Part shown: positions 2,138 to 62,950 of the stretch, piece after piece
Layout of the letters: each line of letters starts with the position of its first letter
How positions within the stretch are numbered: the first letter of the stretch is position 1
Assembly: GCA_036925085.1 (NCBI GenBank)
Contig: JAUPFP010000013.1
Location: 4,660,155-4,724,154 of the forward strand
Direction of reading: 5' to 3'
DNA: 64,000 nucleotides
From: Brachycybe producta
Taxonomy: Eukaryota > Arthropoda > Diplopoda > Playtdesmida > Andrognathidae
The notes under the pieces: model-generated
What the model was told of the DNA's origin: nothing
Database searches by the model: none
What the model saw: the letters and a program-made list of their open reading frames with translations, nothing else
Program-made: the position numbers and the translations under genes

Positions 2138-5100
2138 TCAGAGAGCGTTGATTGCATTCAAACTTTGCTTGCAGTCAATGTTGCCACTACTTTCATCCCC
2201 ATTCTTGTCACCACCCACCATCATCAAAACCAACCCATAATTCCCTAAGAATTTTCTGCAATCCTCCGTACTGTCAAACGCAAGGACCCTTTCTACTAAG
2301 GACACTGGCAAAACTGGACGATATCTGAGAAACGTGGATAAACACAATTAAACATTTTTCGATTAAAACGTCTCTGAAAATAAAACAATAAGATGATTAA
2401 GGCTGAAATACAAGAAAAAACAAAACTCCCGATTACTCTCTCGATACTTACGGTGTCTCAAAGAGCCCCTAGACAAAAAATCTGATCAAAGTTGGAACAA
2501 CAAAACAAGAGAAACTCCCCAAAAAAAAAAAAAAAGGAAAGACTTAAATGTTTGTTGTACGTACGATTTGACCATGGCTTTGATGGCGGATTTTCGCACC
2601 CTTTCGACAAACCAATCGATAAGATAACCAGACATTTTGGGAGCCGTCTTATACAGCTTAAAGAATCTACAATAATTGGAGAGCGCCCAAGCTGAACGTA
2701 ACCGCAAAGCATGCAACACACACTCATTAGATTTATCCTCCTTCGTCAGTGTTGTCAAGATGGTCGTCAGATCTGAAATGGAGACCAAACTGTTTTAATG
2801 TTTGCTTTTAACGTGTAAACGCTAAAAAGAGGGGGGGGGGCCCTTCAAACTCTTGAAAATTAAACTAGAAGAGCAGCACAAAATCACTTAAGAATAATTT
2901 CATTTTGATATCTTTTAAAATAAGCTTTTTATAACAAGTTTGTAAATAAATTCAAACTTTTTTAAGTGTAAACGCGTCTTGAACTTTTGATTATTGTGTC
3001 TTTCAAAGTGGAAACTAGAAGGGTAGCTCAATCACTTAAGGGTATTTTCATGTTGATTATATTTTTCAAAATAAGCTTATGTAGCAGATGATATTTTTTT
3101 TGTCCATAAAAAGTTTATTTTAAAAGAAATCAAAATGAAAATACCCTCAAGTGATTGAGATAACCTTTTCTAGTTTCTAAAACACTTTCTACTTTATTTA
3201 ATCTCAGAATAATCAAAGTTCAAAAACCAGCTGCTCATAAACAATTATAAGCAGACAATTTTAAAATTTTATCTATAAAAAGTTCATTTTGAAATAGATC
3301 AATATGAAAATATTATTAAGTGATTGAAGCTACAGTTCTAGTTTCTAACACACTTTCAATTTCTCCTTTGCCGTTGCTTCTTCTGAAATCCAGAATAACA
3401 AAAGAGTTCTGAAAAATCAACTGTTCATAAATCGCACCTAACGTATTGGCTGTGAAGATGTAATACAGAATTCTGTACGCCGTAAACTCGAGACGATTCT
3501 CGCCTCCGATTTCAGAGTAAAGATTCTTCAACTGCGTCTGACACTGATTAAATTCTTCATGATCGACCTAAATTAGCGAGAGAAGAAAATGAAAACCACC
3601 GATCGAAGACGGGAAAAAAAAAACCACACTTGATCGCTCACGTACCTTTTCGAGTGCGATGCGAGCGTGCGTTTCGTAAACGTGAACAGTAAAATTGTTC
3701 CTTAAACACTGAACCGTCAAGTCTTGCCTGATCGACTTCAGTTGGTCGCATGCGTAACGATAATCTTGATTCTTAATCCAATGGGTTTTAGTCATCTGTA
3801 ACGACCTTTCCAAAACTTCGAGAGGACGAACAGTAGACGGGTCGGGTGCCTAAAATCACAAAAACGAACAGCAAAAATCAAATAAATGACGAAACTGTTG
3901 AACCGCAACAAAAAAGAATTACGGTCGTCAAACGAAGATAGGGTTTCTCGAGATCCTGACACGTCCCAATGATGGTAAAGTCTGACCAATCAATGTCAGT
4001 CTGTTCTTCGCCACTCTTAAAAGGTTAGAAGAAAAAAAAATTACAATTCAATATTGTTTTAATTATTTTCAATATTCCTCCGTTGAGATATTTTTTTTTC
4101 CTACATTGAAATTATTGATCATCATCGTTAGTTTTGTAGATTTAGACCTTTTTGCGGAAGACGATTCGTTATCTTGAAAGCGAGCGGCTCGTTTCTGCAA
4201 CCGCTCCGACGTAACCATTTCTCCTCCGTCCAGCGAAAACGAATCGTAAAGCCTTTAAATATAGAAGAAAAAAGATCGGCATTCAAGGTTCGGAAACAGA
4301 TTTTCATATTTGGGTCATCATTAACTCACTTCTTTTTAGCATTAGAAACAGTGCCGACAGTATTAGCATTCTGACTGTTCTTCTTTTTATTCTTTCTTTT
4401 CTTGTTCGAAGCGCTGATGTTACCCTTGTTACCTTCAACAAATGGACCCCCCTTTCCCCCCTTGAAACCCGTCCTCGTAACTGCGGGACTTATGATTCTC
4501 GAACTCAATTTCGGACCGCGATCCGAATCGTTGGAACTCGAACTGCAATTGTAAACGATCGTGATATAAGTCCAAGGAATTTGAGTTACAACTTAACAGC
4601 CTAGACATTCCAGAGTGCACGTGCCGCCGTAGACACTACGTAAGTTAAAATTTGACGTGTCTAAAACGTGATCTCGATTTCTAACAATAAGTTTCTCTTC
4701 AAACAGAGTTTTGAACAATCGTAGAAGCCGCAGTTAATTCAATGCCGTGGTCAGGTTTTACGGTCTTTTGGCTGCAAAATTCACAGGAGTTTTTATTTTA
4801 CGCCCTTTTGAATTATGCTAAATTGCTTGACCCATGACAAAGGGTCAATGACCTAAAAAAAAAAGTCCGTTTTGTTGATTACCATTTGTTCTCGTTTGTA
4901 TTTCAGTGTATTCCTTAATATGTTCCTCGAGTGCTATCGTTATTTTGTGTTTCGAATTACCGTTTGATTGCTAGAGAGCCATTTGAGTGAGTTTGGAACC
5001 GCCAAACTTACCAATGTGCAACATCGGAGTGTCTAGGCTCTCTTAACGAGATCGTAAAAACCAAATACCTGCTACGTCGTTTTCTAGAAATCGATTCACT

Positions 5101-8998: not shown

Positions 8999-11900
8999 AT
9001 GGCGAGCAACACGGATGAAGAACAGAGTCTTCGAGATTGTGAGGTTTACGTCCAACGACACAACATACAACAGATTTTAAAGGACTGTATTGTTAAATTA
9101 TGCGTCAGTAGACCTGAAAATCCGATCGCTTTCCTCAGAGAATACTTTCAGAAATTAGAAAAGGTAAAAATCGTCTTCCCTTTCAGTCATTATCTTCTTC
9201 TTGTCGTCCTTCTCCTCCTCCTCCTCCTCACCCTCCCCCTTCCCCTTTCGACCAATTTTGCTTACGAAATCCCATTGGAATTTCCGTTTTGAATGGGATC
9301 CACTCAAGAGATTCTTTCCATGACCTAAATTGCCTACTTATTATTATTGTTGCTCGTACTTTTTTAACTCTTTTAAAATCGTTTATTCTTGTTTAATTGG
9401 TGTTTTTTTTAAAAAAGTTCAAATGTGAGCAACTTAAAAACGTGCAAATTTGTAGGAAACTTTCAAAAGTAACGAAAATATCTTTGTTCAGTTACTCTTG
9501 TCTTACTGGTTTAACCTTAAATGACCAGTTTCTACTTGCTTTTCTACCCTGATATCATGATATGAACGAATACAGTTTTTTTTTTTTTATTATTAAATGA
9601 CTGAATTTGGTTGCTTTCTAGTCTTAAATAAAAGCGAATAAGGTTGTTTTCTAGTTAGGAATGTCTGAATGCTGGTGTTTTCTAGTCTGAAGTGAATAAA
9701 TATTATTTTCTAGTTTGAAATCAACCGAATGTTGGTGCTTTCTAGTCAATAAATGAGCGAATAAATCTGTTTTTTGGTTAGAAATGAACCGATTACAGTT
9801 GTTTTCTAGTCTGAAATGCATAAATACGGTTGTTTTTTTTTAAGTCTGAAATGACTGAATTTGTTTGTTATAAATGAACGAATTTGGTTGTTTTTTGTAC
9901 TGAAATAAACGAATTCTGTTCATTTATAACTTTTAAACGATAGAATTTTGTTTAAATATAAATGATTTCTTGACGTGAATGGATAAATTCAGTTATTTTC
10001 TAATCTTAAAGGAGCTATTTCAATTTTTTGTCTGTAAAGGACCGAACTTTAAATGCTCAATGTGGTTAGCTTTCAAGGGGAAATTAATTAAAGAGAATTT
10101 TGTAATTTCGTTTGTTCGTTTTTTTTTTTTTTTTTGGTCTGAAAATACAGGAAGCTGCTCTGAAAGCAAAACAACAAAGTGTAGCTACAACTCCACCGAG
10201 TGACGAACCGGAAGATCTTTCTCCGATGCCGACTCAAGTCGTGCAAAGACCGCGACGTGGAGCGTTTAGTGCCGAAACGTACACCGAAGAGGATGCGACG
10301 ACCTACGTCAAGAAGGTTTCGTTGTGGTACTGCAAGTCTTTTTGCTTAACGACGTTCGAACGCCATTTTTACTTTTCAGGTTGTTCCGAAGGATTACAAA
10401 GCGATGGAATCTTTGTCGCGAGCGATTGCAAAGAACGTTCTTTTCGCACATTTGGACGAAAACGAAAAAGGGTTCGAATTTTTTTGTTGTTTATTCGGAA
10501 AAAGTGTAAGATGTTATAAATTGTGTTGTTGTTGTTCTTTGTTGCTACATAGAGACATTTTCGACGCGATGTTTCCGGTTGTTAGTTGTGCGGGCGATAT
10601 CATCATTCAACAGGGCGACGAAGGAGACAATTTTTACGTCATTGATCAGGGCGAAGTCGATGTTAGTAACATTTGTTAAGACTTTTAAGATTCTTTTTTA
10701 AATGCATAACGCCTCTAAAATTATTGGTTATTCTGTTTTTTAGAAGCAACATTAAGAAAAACCTGAATGCGTTTTATAAACTAGAAGAGTAAGAAAATCT
10801 TTAAAAAAAAAAAAAGTAAAAATTTTATAGCACTTTGAAGAATGATCAAATTTTTAAGTTTTTTTTTTAATACTAGCAAATTCATTTTTAAAGTTATCAG
10901 TTCCATAAAAGTTTATTTTAACATGAAAATGACATGAAAAAAACATGAAAATCAGCCATAAGTGAGTTGTTTGCTCCTCTAGTTTTTAAAACGATTTTTA
11001 ACAATAGTTTCTCAAGCAGTAAGCTGTTTAAAACTATATGTTTGAACTGTTGGTTTTGTGTTTCAGGAGTAACTTAAAGAGAAATTGAAATTGTGTTAGA
11101 AACTAGAACGGTAGCAGAATCACTTGTTAAGATTTTTGTCTTGATATCTTTCAAAATAAACTTTTTATAAATAAATGTTTAAAAAATATTGTCTGCCTAA
11201 AGTGGAGCGATTTTTTAAACTGACACAAAAAGGTTATTTTAAAAGATATCATTATTAAAATACCCTCCAAATTAATTGAGTTGCCCTTCTAGTTTCTAAA
11301 ACACTTTGAAGTTTCTTTTAATTTTGCTCCTTAAAGACAGTTTAATTGGAGTTTGAGCGACATTTACACTGTAAAATCACCTTAACCGTTTTTCAGATCT
11401 TTGTAAACGGAGAATTAGTGATAACTATCGGAGAAGGAGGAAGTTTTGGAGAATTGGCTCTCATTTACGGAACTCCGAGAGCTGCAACCGTTCGGGTGAT
11501 GAATCATTACATTTCGACGGGTAACGAAATTGAAAGGATTCTCATCGAACGTTCGAAACTTTGTATTTTTCAGTCGAAGTCCGATGTTAAGTTATGGGCA
11601 ATCGATCGTGACACTTATCGAAGAATATTAATGGTTGTTATTAGATATTTTCGAAAGACTGTTTTGCCAGGCCAGAAATTTTAAGAAAGAAAATTTTGTT
11701 TTGTTTTTTCATATATATTTTAGGGTAGTACGATTCGAAAGAGGAAGATGTACGAAGAGTTTTTGTCTAAAGTATCCATCTTGGGTAGGTTTCGAGGGTA
11801 ATTTTCGTTTTGTGTCGAGTGTTTGTTTCGAGTGTTTTCGTCGTTTTATGCAGAGAGTTTGGATAAATGGGAGAGGCTGACAGTTGCCGATTCTTTGGAA

Positions 11901-13247
11901 CCGGTTTCTTTTGATGACGGAGCCGTGATCGTTAAACAGGGTGACGCAGGAGATGATTTCTTTATCATCTCCGAAGTAAGTTATTGCAAAGAGTGTTCAC
12001 TTTTCTTTTTATCTCATTCTCGTCATTTGTGATCTGTGTCTTCTGTTTGTTTTCTCCGAAGGGAACTGCGATTGTGATGCAGCAGAGGTCTGAAAACGAA
12101 TCTGCAATTGAAGTTGGACGACTAGGTCCATCGGATTATTTCGGTTAGTTCGTTTTTGTTAGCTTTTAGAAACTTAACATCACGCCATCACGCCTTGTTT
12201 CTTGTTAGACACTTTGAATTGAAAATACTTTTGTTTCATTGAAACTATATGAGTAATAAGAAGAGAATCAGATAAAACAATTTACAAATGACTTATTTCG
12301 AATGCGTTCGACTACAAAATGGGCCGATTTTCAAACTGTTGGAATTGGTTGTCATAAAATGTTTGTTGTAAAAACTATTTTGAAAGATACTTGCAATTGT
12401 TTGAGGTGGTTTTAAAGTGTATTCTAACTGTGAACACAGATTATTGGTTTTTAAAGATGAGTGTCCACTTGGTCGGTGACTCTGCACGGTTATGCATGTG
12501 AATGAATGGAGCCCCGTCCATTAGGCGAAGAGCCGAGAAGTGCGGCGTGGCACTGCTCTGGAAAAAAGTCTGGAACTTCTTTAAAGCTGAGTGTCCACTA
12601 GTTCGGTGACTCGGTGCGCCGTGCCACAAAGCGTCATCTACCTAATGGGACGCTCAGCTTAAAGGATCGAAATTAAGAAATAATTGAAAGTATTTTAGAA
12701 ACTGGGAGGGTGGGTCAATCACGAAAGGGTAATTTCATGTGTCCGTGTGTCATCTTTTAAAATAAGATTTTTATGTCAGTTTTAAAGTGTCCCCATTTGT
12801 TTAAGCAGACATTTTTTTTAAATTTTGTCTGTAAAAAGTATTTTGAAAGATATCAGCGTGGTTTAAAGACTAGAATAGTAGCTGAATCGCATAAGACATA
12901 CATCATGCTCTTATCTATTTAAATGAGCTTTTTTATGGCTGTTTTACAAATAGCCCAATTTTAATATACTTTGAAGTTTTCTCCTTAAAGAATCGGGATG
13001 TGCCTTTTACGGTCCTATGATGAATTTAACGTTGAGAATGTTCGATTTCTTTTTTTTTTTATTTTGTGTTTTAGGTGAGATAGCTCTTCTTTTAGATCGT
13101 CCGAGAGCGGCTACCGTGATTGCATCGGGATCTCTGAAATGTGTGAAGTTGGATCGTGCTCGATTCGAGCGTGTTTTGGGACCGTGTTCGGACATATTGA
13201 AGCGGAACATTACTCAGTACAACAGTTATGTATCACTGTCCGTTTAA
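8999..13247 (+). CDS. PRKAR1A: cAMP-dependent protein kinase type I regulatory subunit
   Basis: Binds and inhibits PKA catalytic subunits in the cytoplasm and releases them on cAMP binding. Exons: 8999-9163, 10151-10315, 10380-10471, 10553-10661, 11397-11495, 11574-11633, 11724-11784, 11854-11975, 12062-12143, 13075-13247; 375 residues, against about 381 in mammals. Residues 8-55 form the dimerisation/docking domain. The inhibitor sequence RRGAFSAE (90-97) has Ala at the phospho-site, so it is a type I pseudosubstrate. Domain A phosphate-binding cassette is [19 protein letters not shown] with Glu196 and Arg205; domain B is [16 protein letters not shown] with Glu320 and Arg329; all cAMP-contact residues are present. 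The C-terminus NSYVSLSV is nearly identical to mammalian. The vertebrate 1A/1B split postdates most invertebrates, so the symbol is by similarity only. Intron 5 (78 bases) is a multiple of three with no stop. Promoter has two CREs. Confidence 0.97.
9500..9960 (+). repeat. Degenerate tandem repeat in PKA intron 1
   Basis: About ten diverged units of roughly 40 bases, each with GTTTTCTAGTCTGAAATGA followed by CGAATACGG-like sequence. No coding potential. Confidence 0.6.
10690..11388. repeat. Palindromic repeat family A, two copies (PKA intron 4)
   Basis: A left arm at about 10730-10800 and a fuller copy about 11050-11388 with AGAAACTAGAACGGTAGCAG on the left and GCCCTTCTAGTTTCTAAAAC on the right. 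The right end reads TTTACACTGTAAAATCACCTTAA, the outer end also seen at other copies. It lies right before the exon 5 acceptor. Confidence 0.75.
12455..12659. mobile_element. Nested or partial TIR element in PKA intron 9
   Basis: AAAGATGAGTGTCCACTTGG (12455) and AAAGCTGAGTGTCCACTAG (about 12581) are direct repeats; the element ends with GGGACGCTCAGCTTAAAGG, the inverse of the latter. Looks like one short MITE beside or inside a relative. Confidence 0.55.
12660..12992. repeat. Palindromic repeat family A copy (PKA intron 9)
   Basis: Contains AGAAACTGGGAGGGTGGGTCA, AAAATAAGATTTTTATG and the central AAAAAGTATTTTGAAAGATATC of the family, diverged. Confidence 0.65.
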
Positions 13248-18229: not shown

Positions 18230-21200
18230 TTAATTGGCATTTTTGTATATATAAAAGAAAAAGCAATATATATAAAATGCAAAAGGCAATGTACTGATCA
18301 AAACAATGAATTTAAATGAGAAACTGTATTCGGACAAACTTGTTGAAGTTTTGTATTCGTATCCTTCGTCTTGTAAACATGCAACTATTTCAGACAAATC
18401 ATTTGGTCGTGTCGGAATGTATCCAAGTTCACGAGTTGCTTTGGCATTGCTGAAATAATGTGTTGTCACCATTTTGGTTAGCTGTTCAGTGTAGACCATA
18501 AGTAATTAATGATTAGTTGTTGTAAAGAAAGTAGAAAAAGCAATAATAACGACACAATACCTCTGTTCTAGTCAATATCGTGGTAAATTCGATACATTCA
18601 TGAATAAATGTAGGCATCATTTCAACCAGATAAACTGAAATGATTACAAAATTATTACATTTTTTTATGTGAATTATGAATTTTCGTATATACAATAATA
18701 AACATAATTTTGTCACCTAAGAGCCATACAAAGAATACTGGAATTCTGTATTTGATGTTTGGATATCCAAGTTCTCTGGCCTAGAAATGCATGCAAATAT
18801 GGGTGAAATCGGAAAAAGTTAGAACCTATTCTTTTTTTAAAAAAAATTTCTTGAACAAGTTGCAGAAAAAAGCGGACAAGAACGATTTTTAATATCTAAA
18901 CTGGTTTAGTTAATTTTTTTAAAAAAATGCTACTAGATTATAACGAATAAAAAAAAATCACGTTAACCAAATTAAAACCAATCAGAAAATTCCCAGATAA
19001 TTAAATTAGACTCAACTCGTCAAACAAACTTTATGCTCTTTAGGAAAGATAAACGAAGCTGCAAGGTAGTTTTTTTAGAATTATTTTAAATTATATTCAA
19101 TATTCAATTTATCCTCCAGATGATGATTAATAATATTGTGCAATATCAAATATTGTACAATTTTATTGAGCGTCTAAGGGCAGCTTTAAACTTGAAAAAT
19201 AAACTTTTTATTACATCTTTTTTTTTAAAAAAAAAAGAGAATTTGTCAATATTTTCTTGTGTTTTTTTTATTTTTCTGCATCTATGTAAAATAAGAAAGA
19301 TTTGTTTTTGAATTTAGGCTCACTATGTTGACGTGGTATTCCCCATAGTTAATTGGTTTGCCATCACTGATAAAATAAGGATTTCCTCCCTGTTTATATG
19401 AATAATATTATCAACATTATTGTAAAAGACATTTATTACTTTTAAATGATTTTGATGTATTCGTACCACAATATCCCTTTTAGTTTTGTCCATTAATGCA
19501 TTTGATGCTAAAATATGACCCTTTACGGCGTTATGAATTAATATGTAGTCACCCACTGTATCTGTTGGCCAAAATCGTCCAATCAGTGTCCCACTTCGAT
19601 AATGGTTCTAATAAAAAAAAAAGAACACAGACATCTATTTTACATATTGTTTCTATAAAATAAAAGTCTTAAGCAAATTTTAAAAACTGCGTTTTTAAGA
19701 ACGTACTTTTGATTTTTACAACGTGTTTCAAAAATTATGTCTCAAAACACATTTTCAAAAATTTGTAAAAACTTTTTAGATCTTAAAATAAACAAAACTA
19801 GAAGTGCACCAAGCATCTCATGATGTGACGTTGTTCTTTGGGTCCTACAAGTCCAGCTAATCGTAAAGCACATGTGTGAAGATGTCCATTTCCATCAGAA
19901 ATTAATCTTCCATTTGATATTAAAATAAACTGTTCGGCTATGCTTTTTGTAAGAGAATAGTGATCTGTAAACTTTAAATAACAAAACATTTACAAATCAA
20001 TGAAAATGAAATTTATTGATAAATATAAAATAGGATGCAATTGAAAACTGAAGACTATTTCTTTATCTTGTAAAGAATCGATCTTTTTTAAATTTTAATT
20101 CTTAAATAAAATCGTATTTGATCTGCCTCTCGAACTCGATCTTCTTTTTATGGCCCTTTAAGAAGCAAAATCCAGAAAAAGTTGAAAGTGTTTTATAAAC
20201 TAGAAGCATTTTCATGTTGATATTTTTTTTAAAAAAAAAAATAAGCTTTTTTGTCAGTTTGAAAATGACCCAACTTTAAGCTGTCGATATATTTCGATTT
20301 TTGTCTATAAAAAGTTTATTTTGAAAGATTAACATGAAATTACCCGAAGTGATGGAGGTTAAGCTTCTAGTTTAACACACATTCGATTTTTTTTTCTTAT
20401 GGTTATATAGGTTATATGGTTATAAAATTTGTTTTATGTGGTAAATGACATTCTTGTGTGACAACTGTTGTTCCAATTAAAAATGTACCTTATGTAGAGG
20501 TGCATATGGTAGACTTTCATCTCCATTGCAAATTTCTTCCGATGCAAATACAACATTATGTGTGCTCGTGTAGACCAATGCTCGAACATTTTGAGAACAA
20601 CAAGCTGTTTATAGATTAGATAATTTTATTTTAGAATTTATTAATTTTTATATAAAGTCAGATTAAGAAAAAAAAATAAATTTCAAATGGTGTGTGTCAA
20701 ACCTTTGATTACATTTTTGGTGCCACCAACATTAATCTGTTCAATCTTTCTAGAAAATATTGGTAACTAAATATAGAAAATTGGTATCATTGTCAACAAT
20801 TTAAACATTACCAGGTAATTTAAACTTGAAACGAAATTCTAAAATACCTGATCCCGATTCGATAGACCAAAAGAGGCTGTGTGAATGACACAATCCACGC
20901 CTTTGAAAGCGGATTCCAAGTTTTCTAGATTTATGATGTCTCCCTTTTCAAAGAAATATTTATTTTGAATATTATTTACTTAAATTTATATATAATATTA
21001 TATAATAAATACGAGATGTGACCAATAAAAGCCAATAGTTTGCATAAAATGCGCAAAACGCATACTGAGAGTTAAACATCTTTTTTTTAGGGGGGGGGGG
21101 GGGATAGAATTACACCAATGATGCCATGTATGCAATAATAATTGCTTTAATCCAAAATAAAAGTACATAAAACTCACAAATGGCGTAATTTGGTTTACTT

Positions 21201-21405: not shown

Positions 21406-22552
21406 CTGAGTTTTTACCTTTTTTTAACTTTAGTTTTTTTTAAAATAAGTGTTGTTTTTAATGTCGATAATAAATGACATTAAAAATGAGAACAAATATA
21501 TGGGCTGTCGCGTTATTTAAGTATTTTGTTTGCTCTTTGATTGGTAATTGATGAAACTGATTTGCTCTTATCACACATAACATGTCGAGGTTACATACAC
21601 ATTTTGAATTGTAAGATCTATATGTATGTGAAATGAATTGAATAGAAATGGACAAAGTCTTTATTATGTCTGTTGTTGCCTTAGGTTAGGTTATTAATTG
21701 CCCTTAATTACCAACCAATAGTAATTACCTCGAGGTTGCGCCATGTTTAAATATGGACATAATTGTTTTTTAAAAAAATAGGTCGTGAAATAAATCTTTC
21801 ATTTATTTTATTATTTTATTATTTGTTGCACACTTCAAATTAGCATTTTTCATTACTTTTAAGTGTTTTTTTTTAAAAACATTTTTAAAAACAAATTAAG
21901 AAAGTGAAAAACAATAGCAAAGTTTTAAAGATTTTTTATTAAGTTTTGAGAAAAAAATAAATATGTTTAAATTTTTTTTAAGAAGTTCTGAGAAAAAATA
22001 AATGAAGTTTTTACCGATTTTGGTTCTTTCATAAAATACAATCATGCAGCCAGTCATTTATGTTAATTTTATGTATTTTATTGTCAAAAATATGTCGATT
22101 TACTGATATGAAAAAATTCAATTTTTAATATATAAATACATAATGTATAAGCCTATCTATACAGGACAGGTCAAAAGTCATAACCCATAGGCAATTTATT
22201 AAATATTTATTGTATGTTTCTGTGTATATTATACATCAGTATAGGCCTACATAAATAAATATACAGGCAAATTGCTTAGGGACGACATAGAAAATATAAT
22301 AAATAGAATTATATAATATAAAATATAATTACATAAATAATTAATATTATAATATATATATATTACTTAATTTAATTTGTTATATTATACTTTCTTCCTC
22401 TTTAACACTTATGAGCCGTTGTTGCATATTTTTATTTTAATTAATAATTATAATTAAATCATTTTTTTTTAAATATTTGTTTATAAAATGAAAACAAATT
22501 AATATTTGACTGTTTCCGTTGTTAACATTAGTATGAGAGATGGTTGACGTGT
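21406..22552. other. Upstream region of SDR42E-like gene
   Basis: The first part must hold the SDR42E promoter (minus strand). The rest is very AT-rich with short palindromic AT tracts at 22280-22400. No further gene seen. Confidence 0.5.
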
Positions 22553-22634
22553 GGTAGCGTGGCCGAGCGGTCTAAGGCGCTGGTTTAAGGCACCAGTCTC
22601 CTCGGAGGCGTGGGTTCGAATCCCACCGCTGCCA
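22553..22634 (+). tRNA. tRNA-Leu (anticodon AAG)
   Basis: 82 bases folding as a class II tRNA. Acceptor arms GGTAGCG and CGCTGCC pair, with discriminator A. Box A TGGCCGAGCGG and box B GGGTTCGAATC are intact. The anticodon stem CTGGT/ACCAG encloses loop TTAAGGC, so the anticodon is AAG (Leu, CUU). The variable arm TCTCCTCGGAGGC forms the long extra hairpin of tRNA-Leu. A run of T at 22635-22638 serves as the Pol III terminator. No intron; the encoded sequence ends at the discriminator A, so the terminal CCA is not encoded. Confidence 0.97.
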
Positions 22635-22639
22635 TTTTC

Positions 22640-23720: not shown

Positions 23721-26700
23721 ATCGTGATGGATAAGTTATTAAAGATTCCGAGTTTGGAGATGTTGGTCGAGAGGTTTCGGGACTTTCGTTAGGAGTCTTG
23801 ACTTTTTCCGATTCAGGAAAAATTCCCTCGACGATCGGAATAATGTTACGCCAAACACGAGCAAGCTGAAATTTTTTTTTGTTTTTAGAAAAGTAACAAA
23901 AAAATTTTGTTTCTTAAAATGTTTTATGAATAGCTAATTCTCGTACTCTGGTTATTCTACATTTCATAAAATAATAATAATAACAATAACACTAAGGAGA
24001 AATTGAAAGCTATTTTCTAAAACACTTTCAAATTTATCTTACTGTGTTAGCTCATGAAAAACAAAAATATCCAGAGTTCGAGAGGAGTTTAAACTTTTAA
24101 AAAATGTCAACAAACAATAAATATTCCGCACCTCTGAATGACAACTTGCAAAAACTGTTGTCATATTCTGCAAAACACAATAGATCATATGCATCGAAAC
24201 GTGAACCAATTGCGTTTCCATATGAATACAGTAAAGCGCAAATTGGTTACGTCGTTCCATAACCTGAAGAGTTGATTCTTGCTGTAATTAGAAGTAGAAA
24301 AATTAAAACCATAAAAAAATAATAACGAATGATTATTTCTATCAACCTCTGAAATGCGATTCTCCAAATCGTCGGCGACATTGGCCTGAAAAAAAAAAGA
24401 TAGTCGTTTTATTTAATCTGGTTTCTAAAGTTTAAATGCTATTCAAACTCTGGTTATTATGTATTTCAGAAGCGAAATGAAGACAAACTTGAATGTGTTT
24501 TAGAAACTATAAAGGTAGGTCTATCACCGGTATCTTTAAAAATACAATTTTTATAGACACAAATTTAAAAAAAAATATTGTCTGCTAAAAGTTTGGCCAT
24601 TTTCAAACTGACGTTCAAAATTTATTTTGAAAATGAACCAACTTTAACCAGGTGATATTTTTTTTTTAAATTTTTGGTCTATAAAAAGTTTATTTTTAAA
24701 GATATCAACACGTAAATACTACACTAAGTGAGTCAGCTACTATTCTAGTTTCTAACACACTGTAAGTATATCTTCATATGTTGTTTCTGAAACGCAAAAT
24801 GACCAGAATTCGAAAATATCAGCTGTTCTTAAAACATGTTAATCAATTAATAAAATAATTACATCTGCCCCTTGATACGAAGCCTGATTCACTTTTTTTC
24901 TTATAGTGACTACTTTCGTTAAGACTTTCTGATGATCTTGTATTGCTCCTTTTTCTTGACGCTCGCATAAATGCTTTTTAACCACAACAACAACAATATT
25001 AACGTAAAAGAAAACGATTTCAAAACAATTCAATAGGCAAGACAAACACTATTATTACTATGTAAGATGTCAACAAGTCCAAAAACAAATTTAATTGATC
25101 GAGAATTTCTTCCTCTTGAAGAACAGTCTGAAAAACAAAACCAAAAACGTTTTGTATGATACAAATAGCACTATACTTTTTGTGTGCGAGCCATAACTAG
25201 CTAATTTTGCGCTCGAGGCACGAATAAAACTTGCGCCTCCTCATAGTATTTATGTTGTGCCCCTATTTTGGAGCCTATAAGCTTTGCGCCTCACTTGCCT
25301 CACCCTTAGTTATGGCTCTGTTTTTGTAACAAAAAAAAAACAAACCTGACTTGCTGTTCTGTCGGAAAGATTTCCAAAAGTGTGACTTAGTTCGCGAAAC
25401 CCTTTCTTTAGATGATTCCACGTATCGCAACCTCCCGTTGCCCACACTGAAGTGATATGTGGTTCGCACGAAAGCGCACTGATATAATATAATTAAAAAT
25501 CTTTTTTATTTCTCCGAAATAACTGTTCTCGAAATATAATTTTCAAATTCATTTTCAAATTCATTTTAGAAAACCTTAATTCTTTGTGAATATCAGACAC
25601 ATCCATCGCATAAGCTAAAAAAATAATTTATTTACAAAACTTAAAACACAAAATTGCAATCGAAAACGTGTTTTTTAAAAAAAAAAAAAGTTTCTCTAAC
25701 TCTGTGATCGTGTGATCATCCTTTGAAGAATCTCTTCGAAATGAGTTAAACTGATGTGAATGAATTTGATCTGTTCTCTACTAGTTGCCAGATGAACGTG
25801 ACTATCAACAGGTACGATATCTTTCTAAAGAATACACACCAAACAAAAAAAGAATGAAGAACGACGAGTTGTTTTCTCTCTTTTCTCTCTCTCTATTGAT
25901 AGATAATTTAGAAAGAAAAAAATACCCTCGATGCGAGTGCACTGAGCAAGAACTCGTCTGGAATGTTCCGAAATTGTTCTCGTATTTTGTACTGCATTTC
26001 CTGATATGCCACAAAACGAGAGAAAAAGACGTTGTAATTTTTTTTGTTGTGCTTTTAGGTTTTTTTTGTTTATTTCATTTTGAACTCACTGGTCCTTGAA
26101 ATGTGAAAAAAAATCTGACTATTTTATCGGTACTTAAGATTGGATGTCTGACGATCAACGTAAGATATCTAACGAGAGCCCGACGTCGCTGTTCGATGAA
26201 CCTCGCATCGGCTGAGAACGAAGAAAAATGTTAGACGTTAGATGTTACTTTCAGACGAGTTGATGACATTTTTTTATGGCTTGACTGGATACAGTGGCAA
26301 ACCGATTGTATTGGCGAGGACAGTTAGGGTTTTTAATATATTGGCATCAGTATAAGATTAATCATAAATTTAAACGATTTCTACTTTAACGTAAATATTA
26401 AACGATATTTTTTAAAAAGGGGTTTATCGTTTTTATTTGCAAAATAAATTTAAACAATTTAAATTTACTAACCGCCAACCATCTTCTTAGGCGGTAATCT
26501 CGGCACCATGCGATAAGGATACTTGATCGTGAGAAGGTCCTGCAAAGCTACGAAATCATTGTAACGTCGCCTCGCTTTACTCTTGAGTCGCTACATCGAC
26601 ACAACAAGTTTCAAACAATGTTACCCGCAAACTAATTAAGAAACCGGAATTGTTTTATACTTGACTGAAAACATCATATTCAACGTGTTTCAAGAAGAGT

Positions 26701-36611: not shown

Positions 36612-36800
36612 AATTTCTCATAAAAAAAATTGTTGATTCTGTTATCTTGATTCGTTTAATCTATGTTTCACTAGAAATTGAAAGTGTTAGAAACTATAAC
36701 GGCGTATATTAACATGTAAATACTCTTCTAGTTTCTAAGTGTACAAACATTACAAAATATTTGCTTAAAATTGAGTCATTTTCATTTGCCCTTAAGTGGC

Positions 36801-37155
36801 TGAGCTACCCTTCTAATTTTTAAATGACTGAGCTACCTTTCTAGTTTTTAAATGACTGAGCTATTTTTCTAGTTTTTGTATGACTGAGCTACTTTTCTAG
36901 TTTCTATCTGAGTGAGCTATTTTTCTAGTTTTTAAATGACTGAGCTACTTTTCTAGTTTTTATATGACTGAGCTACCTTTCTAGTTTTAAATGACTGAGC
37001 TACTTTTCTAGTTTTAAATGACTGAGCTACTTTTCTAGTTTTTAAATGACTGAGCTACCCTTCTAGTTTTTATATGACTTGAGCTTTCTTTTCTAGTTTC
37101 AATCTGAGTGAGCTTTTTTTCTAGTTTTTAAGTGAGTGAGCTCATTTTCTAATAT
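36801..37155 (+). repeat. Minisatellite, about 28-bp unit, derived from family A end
   Basis: About a dozen units of TGACTGAGCTACTTTTCTAG plus TTTTTAAA. The unit matches the right arm of family A (TGAGCTACCCTTCTAGTTTC), and a family A remnant precedes it at 36675-36800. Confidence 0.85.
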
Positions 37156-37770: not shown

Positions 37771-37854
37771 AACACAAAATAATTTTGGTCACAAGAAGAA
37801 TGCAAATTTACTCTTATTTTTTATACGTGAAATACAAATGAATGGCCTCACTGA

Positions 37855-38205
37855 ATCGGATCATTCTGTTTTTTAGGAGCAAAATTAAGAAAAATTAAGA
37901 AAGTGTTTAGAAACTAGAAGGGTAGCTGAATCCCGCTAATAATTTCCTGTTGGTATTTTTTTTTTAAATAAACTTCTTATAGACAAAAATTTAAAAAAAA
38001 AATATCGTCCGCGTATTAAAGTTGGGTTATTTTCAATCTCACTTAAAAAGCTTATCAACTCAAAAATAACCTTATGATTGAGCTACCCTTCTGGTTTCTA
38101 AAACACATTCCTGAAGATTTTTTTGTTGTTAATTTTGCACCCGAAAAACAGAATAACTAATGAAGAGTTCGAAAGGCCTTTACACTTTAAAACCACCCTT
38201 TTTAT
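37855..38205. repeat. Palindromic repeat family A, nearly full copy
   Basis: From ATTCTGTTTTTTAGGAGCAA through AGAAACTAGAAGGGTAGCTG, a short centre, GAGCTACCCTTCTGGTTTCT, then CGAAAAACAGAATAACTAAT to TTTACACTTTAAAACCACC. Good reference for the full extent of about 350-400 bp. Confidence 0.85.
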
Positions 38206-39104: not shown

Positions 39105-39640
39105 GTAGTTTTAAAGTGTAACCGTTCCTTAAACTTTGTAATTTATTTTGTCTTTCAGGAGCAAAATTGAGAAAAATTTGAAAATATTTTAGAAGCTAGA
39201 AAGGTAGCTCAATCCCTTAAGAATATTTTCATGTTGTTATCTTTCAAATTAAACTTTTTATGTACGTTTGAAAAGGGACCTACCTTTAAGGCAGACAATA
39301 TTTGTTAAATTTTTGTCTATAAAAAAAATTTATTTTGAAAGATGATACCAACGTGAAGATACTCGTGATTAAGTAACTCTTCTAATTTCTAAAACATCTT
39401 CTCGTAATTTTTGCTTCTGAAAAACAGCAAATAATCATGAGTTCGACAATCAGCTGTTCATAAACCATCTCAAGGGTATTTTTATGCTGATATTGTTTAA
39501 AATGAGCATTTTGTGCGAGTTTGAAAATGACATAACTTTAATAAACGATATTTTTTTAATTTTTTTGTCTATAAAAAGTTTATTTTGAAAGACATGAAAA
39601 TTTTACGGAAACATAAAATAACCAGGGTTCGAAAAACACA
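39105..39640. repeat. Palindromic repeat family A, two adjacent copies
   Basis: Left end TTTTAAAGTGTAACCGTTCC, arm TAGAAGCTAGAAAGGTAGCT, centre TATAAAAAAAATTTATTTTG, right ACTCTTCTAATTTCTAAAAC; a second, shorter set follows to about 39640. Confidence 0.75.
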
Positions 39641-40854
39641 ATGAAAGAACGCTTTTTGTTTGAAGTAAATTCTGAAAAAAAAATTCATTGTTTGTTTATC
39701 TGAAACATGAAGAGTAAACAAAAGTGCATATTTGAGTTTTCTTTAATGTTATTTTTAAAAATAAACTTTTTTTAATATTTATGGCAGTTTGAAATAATGC
39801 TATTTTTGGTTTTCGCTTTTTTTTTAAAGTTGACCAATTTTCAGTTCAAAAGAAAAGTTTCATTTTTATCAAAGTAACTCTCAATAATAAGTTAAAAAAA
39901 TAGTCTTTTATGCACTTTGTTAGAAATAAATCAAAGAAAATTAATTTGTAAGAAAAAAAAAACGTCTTAATTGTTTTTCTTATTTATTTATTTCATAGCA
40001 ATAAATTACAAGTGAATTTATTACAACTAAAGATTGTTTTTTTTTAAATGTTAATATTTATTAGATTACAAAGGATTTTTAGACATTGTTCAGAATTCGA
40101 GCAACAAAATTATTTTGTGACTAAAATAGTCAGTTTGATGTTTTGTTTTTTAAAAAAAATTACCCACAAACCATTAGTGGGCAACTTTAAAACAATAACA
40201 AAAACTCACCAAAACCTAATTAGTATAATGGTAACATAAAATAATGGGACTCGTTTTTCAAAACGAAAAATATACAAAACAAAAACTGGCATTCTGAGTG
40301 AAATTAATTATTTAGGAAGCCTATCCATGTGTGTGTGTATATGGAACTAGTTTAGAAAAGATTTCATCCAACTGAAAAATGTACATACAGATTTTCAATT
40401 AAATTTTGTTATTTTATCTTCTCATCTTCATTTTTTTATTTTTCATTTGATTCAGAAACAAAAAATGAAATTTGTTGATTTTGTTTTTGTAAATATGAAT
40501 AATTGATTCTCGTATGTCAGTTTTTTTGTTTTGTCCCATATTATGTTGTTAAAAAATAACAAATAAACGCGCGCTGTAATCAAACATAACAGAAGATTGT
40601 TGCATGCAAATTCTTCTTGTACATAAAAATACAAACATCCAATTAATTTTAAAGTCGATTAAGTTTCTCATATCCCGTTTATTTTAAATTTATGTTAAAT
40701 AGTCTCGGGTATCTACCGAAAGTATGCACTAGGGCTTAACTTTATTCCGAAATATTGCCTTATTTTTAGGGTAAGATTTGATGAATCATTGCATTTTTAA
40801 ATAATGAAAATTTCATTTTTTTTTATTCAAGTTTTCATTATTTTCTTACGGTAG

Positions 40855-41745
40855 TTTTTAAAGTGTAATAGCTCTTTGAACTGTGGTTATTCTGTCTTTT
40901 AGAATTAAAATTTAGAGAACCTTGAAAATGTTTTAAAAACTAGAAGGGTACCTTACTCACTCGATGTTGATATTTTTTTAAAAATAAGCTTTATATGTCA
41001 GTTTAAAAAAGAATCCAACTTTAAGCAAAATATATATATATATATTTTTTTAAAAATGTTCACTATTAATGTATAGTTTGTTAAAGATACCAACAGGAAA
41101 ATTATACGAGCGTATTAAGGTGGCTGAATAGATATTTATTTCATTTTTGTCCTCCGGATTGCACCAATGTAGTGGCTATTACATATACGTTCTATATGAA
41201 GTCTCTTTACTCGCGGTTTTAAGAAAATTTTCATTTTTCAAGCAAGCGTTTTTCAGGAGAAACATTACGAAAAAAATCCAGAAAGTTTTATAAACTAGAA
41301 TAGTTGATGATGATGATGGGTATTCGTTTTATCGTGATAATATCTTTAAAAATAAACTTTTTGTGAAAGTTTGAAATAAGGCGAAAATAGTTTTTAATGA
41401 GAAACGATAACACGGGTAATTTTCAAACTGTTATAAATTGTTTAATTTTTTTTGCCATTCTAGTTTTGAATTCAATTTCGATTTTTTTTTTCTAAAAAGT
41501 TCGTTTGACGTTTTGGCGTCCAAATTTTCACAAAAATATTTAAGGAGCATATAGCATTAGTCACTGTAATGGCGGCGTCCGAAGAGACAAAAAGCAAAAA
41601 GAAATTATCTATTCAGTCCCCTTAAGTAGTTCAGCAACCTGGTCTAGTTTCTAAAAAAACTTTCAAGTTTTTACATAATGCAGAATAACACTTTTGAGTT
41701 CGAAAATCAGCTGTTGATAAAATAATAACTTAAGTTGAAAACTTT
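40855..41745. repeat. Palindromic repeat family A copy with a nested TTAA-flanked element
   Basis: Begins TTTTAAAGTGTAATAGCTCT, arm AAAAACTAGAAGGGTACC; resumes at 41622 with TTAAGTAGTTCAGC and CTGGTCTAGTTTCTAAA, ending GAGTTCGAAAATCAGCTG. Interrupted at 41119-41621. Confidence 0.75.
41119..41621. mobile_element. TIR element, 503 bp, TTAA flanks (piggyBac-like insertion)
   Basis: Ends GGTGGCTGAATAGATA and TATCTATTCAGTCCCC are inverted partners, each bordered by TTAA, and the element splits a family A copy at its own CTTAAG. It contains a diverged family A-like core (TTTATAAACTAGAATAG near 41291). No transposase frame. Confidence 0.7.
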
Positions 41746-47813: not shown

Positions 47814-48600
<787 letters not shown>

Positions 48601-49532: not shown

Positions 49533-50083
49533 AGGTGGCGGAATAGTTATTTATTTTTTTTTGTCTCCTCGGACGGCGCCACAGCTGCTGTCGCTGAAGT
49601 TCAACATTAATCACTACATTTTTTTTTTTTGTAAAATTTGGACGCAAAAACGTCAAAGGAACGTTTTTTTTTTAGAAACAGCATTACGAAAAAATGAAAA
49701 TTGTTTTCAAAACTAGAATGCTAAAGGCTTATGCTAAAAGTGTTTTCATCGCCAATATCTTTAAAAATAAACATTTTGTAGCCATTTTTGAAAAATAACC
49801 CGTTTTTTGGGTTTTTTTTTTTCATTGACATTTCTTTAAAAAAAAAACTATTTTCGCATTTTGTCAAACTGTCATAAAAAGTTTATTTTGAAAGATATCA
49901 CTATAACATTATCATTAACTAATCTAGTTTCTAAAACACAAACTCTAAAACTCGCTTGAAAAATATATTTATTTTCAAAACCGGAGGTTGAGAGTGAAGA
50001 GACCTCCTATAGAAAATAATGATAGCCACACAGGCGCGCCATCCGTCGGGATAAAAACAAAATAAATATCTATTCAGCCACCA
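49533..50083. mobile_element. Second copy of the GGTGGCTGAATAG element, 551 bp
   Basis: Ends GGTGGCGGAATAGTTATTTA and AAATATCTATTCAGCCACC; same TIRs as 41119-41621 and likewise containing a family A-like core (TTTTCAAAACTAGAATGC near 49704). TTAA flanks not preserved. Confidence 0.7.
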
Positions 50084-50680: not shown

Positions 50681-50704
50681 TAAGACAAGAACAGATTATA
50701 TTTT

Positions 50705-56794: not shown

Positions 56795-57225
56795 CTAGAA
56801 ACTAGAGGGGTAGCTCAGTCACTTAAGGTGCAATGAAAATGAACCAACTTTAAGCAGATAATATTTTATAATTTTCGTCAATAAAAAGCTTATTTTGAAA
56901 GATAACAGCATGAAAATACACTATTAAGTGATTCAGCTACCCAATTCTCTAGTATCTAAGGGAATCATCACAGAATCCTAATGAAATCCCATGGAATTCT
57001 ACTTTGTAAGGAATTTTAACAGAAGCGGCCATATATCTTTCAGTGCAAAGAACTTTTAAGGGATATACAGTATAAGGACTATTTTCTGTTGGTTTTCAGT
57101 ATGTGTGATTCTTCCCTAATACACTTTGAATTGCCAACTGAATGTTTCTCCGGAAACACAGAATAACCAGAATTGAAAAAGCAAACTGTTCATAAAACAT
57201 CTTAAGAGTTAACATTTGAAAATCA
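56795..57225. repeat. Palindromic repeat family A copy, interrupted
   Basis: AGAAACTAGAGGGGTAGCTC at 56799, centre AATAAAAAGCTTATTTTG, CTACCCAATTCTCTAGTATC; continues after an inserted MITE with TACACTTTGAATTG and ACAGAATAACCAGAATTG. Confidence 0.8.
56960..57116. mobile_element. MITE, 157 bp, TAA target duplication, inside family A
   Basis: Ends GGGAATCATCACAGAATCC and CAGTATGTGTGATTCTTCCC, flanked by TAA at 56957-56959 and 57117-57119. Relative of 17764-17914. PIF/Harbinger-like. Confidence 0.8.
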
Positions 57226-58199
57226 ATTACAACTAAATCCCATTTGCGCTATGCTGTATGTTAGTATGGTACCATGATGGGGGGTCTTGGATAAAATCCA
57301 AAAATGGTACCCACAGTTTCAGTTATTTTGCACAAATATTGGAAACGTAAATCCTAATTTCTAATTAGAAATATGTAATTTATACAATTACAATGGTTTT
57401 TTTTTTTCAAAATAATTCTTTTTTTTGCTATTTTCTACTTTATATTACTGTATGACATCAACTTAATAACATTTTTATACTATGAGACGCTTTAAAATGG
57501 CTATGTTCTGGACAGCAGCTACCCAATCTCCCCTGTTGTGCATGTGTTCAACTGTCAAAGACATTACTACATTCCAGTATTATTTTTTTTTGGTTCTTTT
57601 TTAGATTAAAGTAACTCTTAAAAAACCAACAAAAAATTACTTGGAATGTGTATGTGAGCGAACCGTAATTTGACTTCTTAACATGGTTAACGTTTTTCAC
57701 AAAATAATTTAATGAAACAAAACTATTTTTACATATTTTAAAATAAAACATTTGTATAGCAATGAGAATTTTTTTTTTCTTCGGTAAACTTTTAATAACA
57801 AAAAAAAAAACACACGCAAAATCTGGATCCATTTCAAACTACCATAAAAAGTTTATTAAAATATTTATAACATTATCGTTTGTAATTCTAGTTTTTAACA
57901 AGTTTTGATTTTCTTCTGTTGCATCTGAAAAACGTTTCTTTTTTCTGCACTTGTGGCTGAGCCTTTTGTGACCAATATGGAGGGCCGTTCATGGCGAAAT
58001 TGCCCAATTTTATCTATCCATAATTCAGTTATGGATTATCTACAATTTAATTGTGAATATGCATAATTAAATCGTGCATATATGAATGTTCATAATTGAT
58101 AATTTTGACTTGAATGGCTCTTCATAGTGGTTCGACTACAAATGCAGAAAGAAAAAAACGCTTTATATATCCAGAAATTACTGTATAACAGGGTAACGG

Positions 58200-58324: not shown

Positions 58325-58423
<99 letters not shown>

Positions 58424-58430
58424 TTAATAT
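58200..58430. repeat. (TTA)n-rich compound microsatellite
   Basis: ATTATT and AATAAT runs in alternating orientation, and a duplicated ATTATCATTATCACTATTGT block at about 58219 and 58275. Confidence 0.9.
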
Positions 58431-59638: not shown

Positions 59639-60055
59639 ATGGTCTGTCAGTTCTCGACTATCGCAATCACCACCTGCCTTTTGGTGGTGCTTCTCTCGTC
59701 CACCTATGGATCTGGATTTTCCGGGTCTTCGTCTGATCCCGATTCCACTGGTGAGTACTATAGGCATTTAATAATATTCTGTCTTCTTTGCAGTGATCAT
59801 TTCAATATTCAAATTTGTTAGATGATCTGCTATTATTATTTTTTTTAAATTCAGGTTCAGATAAACGTGGAACGACCCTCACAATTGGAGCTGTGTTGCC
59901 ACATTCTTGGTATTTGCTGAGGACTTATCAGAAAGTGCTCAGATTTCCAATGCTCGACTATAAAAAAAATCGAACTGTTGTCTATAACTTTCCAAATTTC
60001 TTTCCAAAAATTAATTATGAATTGGTGCCAATGCCACTCAATCCCAGCCCAACTG
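59639..60055 (+). CDS. Secreted/type I membrane protein, N-terminal exons, possible receptor ectodomain
   Basis: Two coding exons, 59639-59750 and 59855-60055, with consensus splice sites (GTGAGT, GTAAGT) and matching phase. Exon 1 encodes a signal peptide: a short N-terminus, a hydrophobic core ITTCLLVVLLSSTYG, then a Ser/Gly/Asp-rich linker. Exon 2 encodes LTIGAVLPHSWYLLRTYQK and, later, INYELVPMPLNPSPT; a strand-helix-strand pattern starting with IGAVLP is typical of the first lobe of periplasmic-binding-like (ANF receptor) ectodomains in receptor guanylate cyclases, ionotropic glutamate receptors and class C GPCRs. One N-glycosylation sequon (NRT) is present. The receptor class cannot be decided from about 100 residues. 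Exon 3 and beyond were not found in the remaining 3.9 kb, so the next intron is long. Confidence 0.55.
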
Positions 60056-60239
60056 GTAAGTTTTTTTTTTTTATTATGGCACTTTTTATGGCTTTATGGT
60101 TTGTGTCGTGTTTTGAGTATTGTGGGTTTATGTTGTGGGCTTTTGCTGCTTGTCGTGTGTTTGTGTCGTGTATTGCATGTTGTGTATGTTTACACTGTGT
60201 TGTGTGTTGTGCCATTTGTTGAATCAACTTGAATGTTGC

Positions 60240-60925
60240 GTGTCGAGTGTCGTGTGTTGAATGTTATGTGCGTGTTGTGTGTCGCTTGTTGAATGTTGTG
60301 TGTGTGTTGTGTGTCGCTTGTTGAATGTTGTGTGTGTGTTGTGTGTCGCTTGTTGAATGTTGTGTGTGTGTTGTGTGTCGCTTGTTGAATGTTGTGTGTG
60401 TGTTGTGTGTCGCTTGTTGAATGTTGTGTGTTGAATGTTGTGTGTTGTGTGTCGCTTGTTGAATGTTGTGTGTTGAATGTTGTGTGTTGAATGTTGTGTG
60501 TTGAATGTTGTGTGTTGAATGTTGTGTGTTGAATGTTGTGTGTTGAATGTCGTGTGTTGAATGTCGTGTGTTGAATGTCGTGTGTTGAATGTCGTGTGTT
60601 GAATGTCGTGTGTCGTGTGTTGAATGTTGTGTGTTGAATGTTGTGTGTCGTGTGTTGAATGTTGTGTGTCGTGTGTTGAATGTTGTGTGTCGTGTGTTGA
60701 ATGTTGTGTGTCGTGTGTTGAATGTTGTGTGTCGTGTGTTGAATGTTGTGTGTCGTGTGTTGAATGTTGTGTGTCGTGTGTTGAATGTTGTGTGTCGTGT
60801 GTTGAATGTTGTGTGTCGTGTGTTGAATGTTGTGTGTCGTGTGTTGAATGTTGTGTGTCGTGTGTTGAATGTTGTGTGTCGTGTGTTGAATGTTGTGTGT
60901 CGTGTGTTGAATGTTGTGTGTCGAG
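60240..60925 (+). repeat. Minisatellite with three unit types, receptor-like gene intron
   Basis: Starts as about 30-bp units (GTGTCGCTTGTTGAATGTTG plus TGTGTGTGTT), becomes about 14-bp GTGTTGAATGTTGT, and ends as a long run of 21-bp units GTGTCGTGTGTTGAATGTTGT minus one. Begins 184 bases after the exon 2 donor. Confidence 0.95.
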
Positions 60926-61725
60926 TGTGTTTCTATCTTATAAGCTTATGTGCGTGTATTCTTTTTGTCTGGCTCCTTTGTCTTGGTTGTGTTTGTATAT
61001 CATTTGTGTTATCTCTCTCACATAACACAACACACACTTAACACCTTCAATCTCTAGATTGACAGTAAAAATAGAAGAAAAGAGGCTTCACCCTTTTTTT
61101 TTTTTCATTTTTATGAAATATTAAACGTATGCGGGAAGCGATGATGCCACCTTTTCTTTATATAAAAAAACACGACAGGCAAAACGCTCTCAGAGTGATT
61201 ATTACAATATAATGCACATTACTACTGTACATTCAGTCTATATAAAATAATCAATCTACTTTTCTTCACCAGTTAGTTAGTTAGTTATTTACATACATGT
61301 TGTATATAAAAACCATATTCATGCAGAGGTTTGCGAGCCAAAAATGGGCTCTTTATTAAGCAATAAAAGTGTGTGACGCACGCACATTCTTATGTCCATA
61401 ATACAATTTTATAGTTGAGTAATAAATATTCATTTTTTTTTTCACTATAAATTCTGTCTTTTGTTATCAGTGAACCTCTTTATCAAAAATTTGAAAGAAA
61501 GAAACAATATTCATATTTCTTTATTATTTTTGTCTTATCTAGTCTAGTCTTATATATAGACTTATTTTTGTTATAGTTTGTAATAATAAAGTAATAAGGA
61601 TTTCTTTCAGGACAAGAGTATCTTATTTAAAAAAAATCCCTTTAAGCAAGTCACTAACACATTTTTTCTCGATATGAAATTTGTGACTTGGTTATTTATT
61701 ATTATGTATATAAATAAATATTAGT

Positions 61726-61976
61726 GATGCAATAACAAGCAAATGTTTCTCAATTTGTGGCCCAAGTGCCAAATGGGAAGTAATCATTAGAGCAAGTCCA
61801 ATTATGCTTTTTCTAATAGGCTGGTTAGTTGCTAAATTTCTGGTTACTGTCAGTTTTTTTACGAGTAACTACTAGAGTTCTAGCCTCTAACCAGTATTAA
61901 CCAGTCTAAACTGGATTGTTACTTCATATTTGGTTCATGGGCCACAAATTGAGAAACATTTGCTTGATATTGCATA
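61726..61976. mobile_element. TIR element, 251 bp (hAT-like ends)
   Basis: GCAAATGTTTCTCAATTTGT GGCCCA on the left is repeated inverted at 61939-61964, and the match extends outward through GATGCAATAACAA. TTCTCAA...GTGGCCC-type ends are common in hAT MITEs. No clear 8-bp duplication was found. Confidence 0.65.
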
Positions 61977-62159
61977 AAAATCCGAGCCCTAGTAATGATC
62001 ACTTTAGGTTTCAATAAAAATAACAATAATAATAACAAACATATGGCGTTTCAATGAACACTATGATTCTGTAATATTTTTTTTTTAGAGTCGGGATATA
62101 AATTTATGCTTCCTTATATTAGTTTTAAGATGGATTCTTTTTATGAACAGCTGATTTCC

Positions 62160-62640
62160 AAGCTTATTTCTCTAAAGAGAAATTGAATGTTAGAAACTAG
62201 AACGGTAGCATGTTTGTATCTTGGAAAATAAATGTAAAAAAATATTGTCTGCTTGAAGTTGGGTTCTTTTTCAGACTGGCATAAAACGCTTATTTAAAAA
62301 AAATAGGCCTACTCTTAAAGTGATTGAGCTAGAGACCTACAGAAAGCCCATGCGATGGTGGGCATTTGGGCTGGGCTGGGCTTGGATTGGCATATTTATG
62401 TTAAAGGTCCATGGGCCAGGTGGGCTTCGTGGGTCTGGTGGGCTTCGTGGGTCTGGTGGGCTTCGTGGGTCTGGTGGGCTTCGTGGGCTTTATGGGCCTG
62501 GTGGGCTTGGCCCAGCATAAAGTCTCATGGGCTGGGCTGGGCTTCAAATTTTTACTCAATGTAGGTCTCTACATTGAGCTACCCTTCTAGTTTCTAAAAC
62601 ACATTCAAGATTCTTCTATATGGGTTTAATGTGTAAAAGC
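62160..62640. repeat. Palindromic repeat family A copy, interrupted
   Basis: TTAGAAACTAGAACGGTAGC at about 62190 and GAGCTACCCTTCTAGTTTCT at 62576, separated by an inserted element at 62331-62572. Confidence 0.8.
62331..62572. mobile_element. hAT-like MITE, 242 bp, 8-bp target duplication, with internal minisatellite
   Basis: Ends AGAGACCTACA and TGTAGGTCTCTAC are inverted partners; ATTGAGCT flanks both ends (62323-62330, 62573-62580) and is the family A target sequence. Inside, an 18-bp unit GGGCTTCGTGGGTCTGGT is repeated three to four times. Confidence 0.85.
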
Positions 62641-62950
62641 CACTAAAACTCTTGATTATATTCTGTCGATCAGGTGGCAAAATGAAGCGAAACTTGGTTT
62701 TGTTTTAGAAACTAGAAGGGTAGTATTTGTTTTAAAATAAGCTTTTTATGGAAGTTTGAAAATAAGTCAACTTTAAGTAGACAATATTTTTTTTTTTAAT
62801 TTTTGTCTACTAAAAGTTTATTTTAGAAAGATATCCAGATGAAAATTTCATTAAGTGATTGTGTTTACCTTTCTAGTTTGTAAACCACTCGAGTTGCTTT
62901 TTTATTTTGCATCTGAAAAACAGAATAATCGAAATACTAAAATTTGAATA
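62640..62950. repeat. Palindromic repeat family A copy
   Basis: TAGAAACTAGAAGGGTAG at 62707, centre TCTACTAAAAGTTTATTTTA, TTACCTTTCTAGTTTGTAAA at 62865 and TGAAAAACAGAATAATCG after it; directly follows the previous copy. Confidence 0.8.

Follow-up and report, generated by a model that had tools for sequence, protein, structure and literature searches.

Genes and Family Copies in the Window

The window, by which we mean the whole 64,000-nt stretch of Brachycybe producta DNA that was analyzed, includes a LENG8-like gene on the minus strand (PF03399), a gene for a PKA type I regulatory subunit, and a tRNA-Leu (AAG) gene (22552–22635, plus strand). Copies of a palindromic MITE lie within and between the genes. 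The initial annotation had placed this family at 12 positions, and a profile of the family matches all 12. In total, the profile identifies 28 nonoverlapping, nonredundant matches that cover 5,768 of 64,000 bases (9.0%), with the qualification that training and test loci overlap: the profile was built in three rounds from the window, which was selected for the earlier report, and from 40 fetched stretches, which were selected for the arm or end of the element. No profile matches were present in the reversed window or in one simulated window. Beyond the positions already named, there are matches at 24.0, 39.5–39.9, 41.2–41.7, and 49.6 kb, and weak ones at 36.7, 39.7, 57.1, and 57.8 kb.

In the LENG8-like gene, a cluster of the family fills most of intron 3437–2773 (cluster at 2799–3437; profile matches at 2862–2958, 2959–3242, and 3257–3433, with 2799–2861 assigned by eye). 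Intron 10662–11396 of the PKA gene holds one copy at 10696–10998 and a nearly full copy on the minus strand at 11041–11381 (fold z −7.2) whose TTAA (11382–11385) stops 11 nt short of the exon, and a later intron of this gene has degraded matches (12660–12987). Further along are a copy at 20123–20401 (fold z −3.9), a minus-strand fragment at 24010–24101, two abutting part-copies at 24422–24835, and a copy at 32692–32990 with an outer end at 33,250–33,269, past a nested palindrome. This palindrome, AGCTTGTAGCA...TGCTACAAGCT, sits inside the MITE copy at 32990–33150. A weak match at 36674–36852 extends into a tandem array. Full copies are located at 37844–38197 (minus strand; fold z −7.3) and 39105–39466 (plus strand, running from a G-type to an A-type end), the latter followed by part-copies at 39469–39866, the second of which is weak. 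Copies at 40854–41102 and 49642–49940, the second one absent from the earlier list, flank a pair of matches within 41248–41721 (41248–41490 and 41616–41721). A core copy (56796–56959; fold z −7.4) and weak fragments at 57116–57197 and, on the plus strand, 57785–57933 precede two final copies. The first (62140–62617) is divided by a GGGCTTCG array (62,412–62,508), such that by eye the matches at 62.2 and 62.57 kb are a single interrupted copy, and the second is at 62621–62932 (profile match to 62,931; fold z −8.9). The interrupting GGGCTTCGTGGGTCTGGT array (62412–62508) is bordered by GAGACCTACA/TGTAGGTCTC. A separate array of 700 bp (60229–60928) has units of 7/14/21 bp and a strong strand skew.

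Genome-Wide Abundance

The family is not confined to the window. Its 21-base arm has 18 matches in the window at three or fewer mismatches, where 100 shuffles predict 0. Across the assembly (295.3 Mb in 442 contigs), the exact 21-mer occurs 3,588 times (1,799 and 1,789 on the two strands; control 0). When up to three mismatches are allowed, the arm occurs 30,732 times (15,255 and 15,477), compared with 0 and 2 for a reversed-pattern control. Arm patterns are absent from the viral and prokaryote contigs searched.

A satellite, a SINE, or a local duplication could in principle give rise to a recurring arm, and tandem arrays bearing the arm do exist. Seven of the 18 arm matches in the window sit in one 28-bp array of 12.9 units (36,792–37,151; arm matches and tandem-repeat scan). 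Arms were present in 8 of 211 tandem-repeat rows from 21 scanned stretches; these include rows in L036 and L037 with periods of 251, 104, and 208 plus a 19-bp row, and two 25-bp arm units in L048. Arms thus sometimes expand to tandem arrays. The arm is nevertheless dispersed across the genome rather than gathered in one long local duplication, its copies have defined ends and TTAA duplications, and the sole Rfam match in the window is the tRNA gene at 22.5 kb. For the main body of copies these explanations are refuted, and we regard their probability as close to nil.

For a first measure of the share of the genome occupied by the family, the profile was run on the flanks of 20 fetched stretches of 9.9 kb each, where it covers 17,207 of 172,000 bases (10.0%). 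Arms are denser in these flanks (256 per Mb) than genome-wide (∼104 per Mb). Because the 172 kb of flanks are enriched in arms, the estimate of 10% was lowered to 3.3–5.2%, obtained by multiplying the genome-wide arm count by the number of profile bases per arm. By extrapolation, therefore, roughly 3–5% of this animal genome, or several per cent, consists of one short element, which lies in introns as well. The element is short, consists of inverted repeats, and has a high copy number, as is characteristic of MITEs. Three diagnostic strings of the MITE were found nowhere in the full-text literature searched, in which sequences are rarely printed in full. Altogether, the earlier claim of a palindromic MITE family is borne out, and the family is real and very abundant; it looks like a new family of a known kind of transposon.

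Structure, Age, and Folding

The consensus is 365 bp, near-palindromic, and noncoding. When it is aligned to its own reverse complement, 330 of 381 columns match, but the profile drew on matches of both strands, and the symmetry of the consensus is consequently exaggerated above that of any copy. The earlier description of copies of 350–400 bp that are almost wholly self-complementary therefore fits the consensus, but copies in the window are decayed. Among 81 copies matching at least 250 positions, median identity to the consensus is 86.6% over ungapped columns, which indicates that the spread of the family is old or was long drawn out. Conservation is slightly higher in the arm (0.91) than in other 20-base blocks (0.79–0.90, a range that omits the last block of 5 bases, which is represented by two copies). 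Each arm also contains a sequence resembling a 3′ splice site (TTCTGTCTTTCAG, at about consensus positions 41–53) that could favor exonization.

The two ends differ in their outer ∼20 bases, with GGTGGTTTTAAAGTGTAAACG defining a G-type and GATGGTTTATGAACAGCTGAT an A-type. In the whole assembly, the G-type end together with TTAA occurs at 1,143 places at one or fewer mismatches (control 0), and the A-type end at 942 (control 0). For 12 G-type ends with a good partner, the partner is A-type in ten and G-type in two, implying that a typical copy consists of a palindromic core bounded by left and right ends that differ from each other. An outer end reported previously, TTAAGGTGGATTTAAAGTGT, is present once exactly in the window (33,250–33,269, minus strand) and three times at two to three mismatches.

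It had also been predicted that pre-mRNAs would hold hairpins. We folded 20 of the 28 matches in the window, eight being too short, and compared each with 30 dinucleotide shuffles. Seven have z-scores of −4 or lower and one has −3.9; the other 12 are weaker or positive, so that 13 do not reach −4. Only some of the copies can thus plausibly form hairpins in pre-mRNA. In Xenopus, Kolobok-T2 elements are described as contributing 50.2% (Xenopus laevis) and 38.7% (Xenopus tropicalis) of A-to-I sites in annotated repeats (PMC10636886). By analogy, hairpins of the family described here may be edited in the same way, which would provide a second system for testing Kolobok-type MITEs as main substrates of A-to-I editing.

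The Target Site Is TTAA

The initial annotation had noted no clean target duplication. This is overturned by three kinds of evidence for a TTAA duplication: flanks of copies, filled and empty copies of a host repeat, and self-insertions. The first comes from 40 exact TTAA plus G-type ends, 22 of which have a candidate partner end and 12 a good one; because the G-type end was preselected for an exact TTAA, the partner end alone is a test. The four bases past the partner end are exactly TTAA in 6 of 12 copies and differ at one position or fewer in 11 of 12. At four control offsets in the same 12 copies, the corresponding counts are 0, 0, 1, and 0 for exact TTAA and 1, 2, 2, and 1 for one or fewer mismatches. 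In a set of 36 ends found at three or fewer mismatches, an exact TTAA was the criterion for fetching 20, and 7 of the other 16 have one as well. There is no base preference directly outside of TTAA in this set.

The second kind of evidence comes from another repeat in which three copies (L020, L044, and L039) occupy the same site, with both flanks recognizable. Locus L020 reads CGTG-TTAA-element-TTAA-ACGAATTTCGTG, with one additional T preceding the right TTAA, and the right junctions of L044 and L039 read -TTAA-ATAAAATTTCGTG and -TAAA-ACGAATTTCGCG, respectively. A fourth copy, L038, has only the left flank in common. At an empty site (L041:7946), found by motif listing, the host repeat lacks the element and has a single TTAA. 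Both orientations of the element are represented at the site, indicating independent insertions or a hot spot. The host repeat, into which the MITE has inserted recurrently, is itself palindrome-like, with the motif AACACGAAA...TTTCGTGTTAA; it is present in the window (48162–48489 and 49043) and in L020, L025, L028, L038, L039, L041, and L044.

Lastly, 13 of 85 TTAA-flanked ends are embedded in the family itself. Seven are exactly at an internal TTAA of the consensus, three are within 1–6 bases of one, two are at an outer TTAA, and one fits none. TTAAs within and next to the family's own copies are thus among its insertion sites, a pattern that chains of units in L025, L026, L027, and L036 also fit.

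Copies in Introns of Host Genes

An intronic copy had been reported for most complete host genes, and this holds for both genes examined, the LENG8-like and the PKA regulatory-subunit genes. Intron 3437–2773 of the LENG8-like gene is 665 nt long, and 639 nt (∼96%) lie between the outermost element ends. Splicing at TTAG|GT...CAG|ATC yields a protein of 178 residues that aligns without gaps to human LENG8 across the junction. The donor, TTAG|GTGC (3434–3441, minus strand), lies at the A-type end of an element, where the profile match reaches position 362 of 363 at 3433. One MITE copy therefore appears to have become a splice site of the LENG8-like gene, and the intron offers a chance to test, in a conserved gene, whether the end of a transposon has turned into a splice donor.

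Such an arrangement raises the possibility of an introner, a transposon family that creates new introns by means of a splice site that it carries. The location of the donor at the element and the filling of nearly the whole intron by the element are as expected of one, and introners with 4-bp duplications are described as likewise carrying the 5′ splice site and taking the 3′ site from the target (PMC9860276). Several features argue otherwise. Only one of three copy-bearing introns examined is built in this way, and the others have host donors; in the PKA gene, the donors are host sequence. The acceptor of the LENG8-like intron is 22 nt past the TTAA of the element, and GT is missing at the donor position of the A-type consensus end (GATGG). 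Since the neighboring intron is 78 nt in length, it is simpler to suppose that the element inserted into a short intron that already existed, and we consider creation of the intron by an introner very unlikely. A broader scenario, of an animal introner in the making, also strikes us as improbable: the end of a TTAA transposon would serve as donor, as TTAAG|GTGG at a G-type end or as TTAG|GTGC in the LENG8-like intron, insertions within or next to introns would remake intron boundaries time and again, and the palindrome would load pre-mRNAs with editable hairpins.

Superfamily and Candidate Transposases

The superfamily had been left open by the initial annotation. Duplication of TTAA is shared by Kolobok and piggyBac elements, and the combination of a TTAA duplication with 5′-RR ends is described as the mark that distinguishes Kolobok from piggyBac (PMC9587614 and PMC6004289). 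Ends of the MITE start with GG or GA and hence conform to the 5′-RR...YY-3′ pattern of Kolobok. Judged by its target and termini, the MITE is probably a non-autonomous Kolobok-type DNA transposon. A Kolobok-superfamily transposase, of the type that combines THAP, DDE, and H2CH, would be encoded elsewhere, bind both ends, excise the MITE, and paste it into TTAA. Many such sites would be available in AT-rich introns and spacers, TTAA within and beside old copies would lead to self-nested and chained copies, and well-preserved copies would form hairpins when transcribed within introns.

Searches of the whole assembly for piggyBac, THAP, and PF20700 domains linked no transposase to the ends of the MITE. 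The places compared with MITE ends were on C1, C6, and C13 for piggyBac, C1 and C3 for PF20700, and C1, C6, and C9 for THAP. By eye, none of these intact places on large contigs is closer than 10 kb to any of the exact MITE ends listed, of which each end type contributed its first 100 places. The assembly has 106 matches to THAP, a domain that is not specific to Kolobok. Nor was a partner recognized by eye among the 25 longest frames listed from L009–L072, of which the frame in L042 looks like a reverse transcriptase. Two candidates were rejected by eye: the portion of a long THAP frame in L073 has no likeness to a transposase, and in L043, where a G-type end seemed to lead into a longer element, neither a second end nor a frame resembling a transposase was seen.

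A piggyBac transposase would likewise duplicate TTAA, and the genome has 93 matches to PF13843 with several intact copies. But the MITE has RR (GG/GA) rather than YY ends, and in the top piggyBac family the right end reads TTAA-CCCTTTAAAGG inward (TTAA-CCC; one family, one end, two copies), unlike that of the MITE. We therefore view mobilization by piggyBac as unlikely. Another resident transposase, for example that of PF20700 elements (Pfam "Mutator"), is a candidate with 53 matches in the genome, the 11 best of which are long and free of stops. Typical Mutator elements make 8–11-bp duplications, whereas the MITE duplicates TTAA, and a mover of this sort seems to us decidedly unlikely. A Kolobok-type mover remains the preferred reading.

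Some of the domain matches are of interest in their own right. The 11 stop-free PF20700 frames (686–980 codons; on C107, C259, C49, C134, C47, C119, C385, C148, C1, and C3) are possible active transposons. Contig C7 has four successive THAP matches with a spacing of ∼1.1 kb (2962745–2966279). On contig C1, the middle 13 Mb (5.5–18.5 Mb) holds every piggyBac match of this contig and 4 of 24 exact MITE ends, both among the matches listed (binomial P = 3e-5, a value affected by the choice of the interval after the piggyBac places were seen).

Comparison with Known Systems

Each of the known systems compared shares some features with the family. MITEs derived from piggyBac have the TTAA duplication in common but differ in having YY rather than RR ends. 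Introners resemble the LENG8-like intron, in one gene, in that an element end is at the donor and the element forms most of the intron; in introners, element ends recur as the boundaries of many introns, whereas here an element end is at the boundary of one of the three introns examined. KolobokP of marine animals is described as having TTAA, RR ends, and multimers with common TTAA-type junctions, all in line with the MITE, and as differing by long terminal direct repeats, a transposase, and a His-Me nuclease, none of which was linked to the MITE (PMC9587614).

The T2-MITEs of Xenopus (Kolobok, including Xmix and Xstir), as described, likewise combine a TTAA target and RR ends with a very high copy number and long life, and have an internal segment amplified as tandem repeats, Xmix/Xstir being a similar birth of tandem repeats from a MITE segment (PMC6004289). 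Compared by description, their ends are AGGRR (PMC6004289), in contrast to GGTGG and GATGG here. Copies of T2-MITEs are reported to be capable of forming long double-stranded RNA (PMC10636886), and well-preserved copies of the family described here are predicted to fold. Two fates of Xenopus T2-MITEs, mass spread and the birth of tandem repeats, are thus repeated in this genome, and the third, edited double-stranded RNA, may be common to both.
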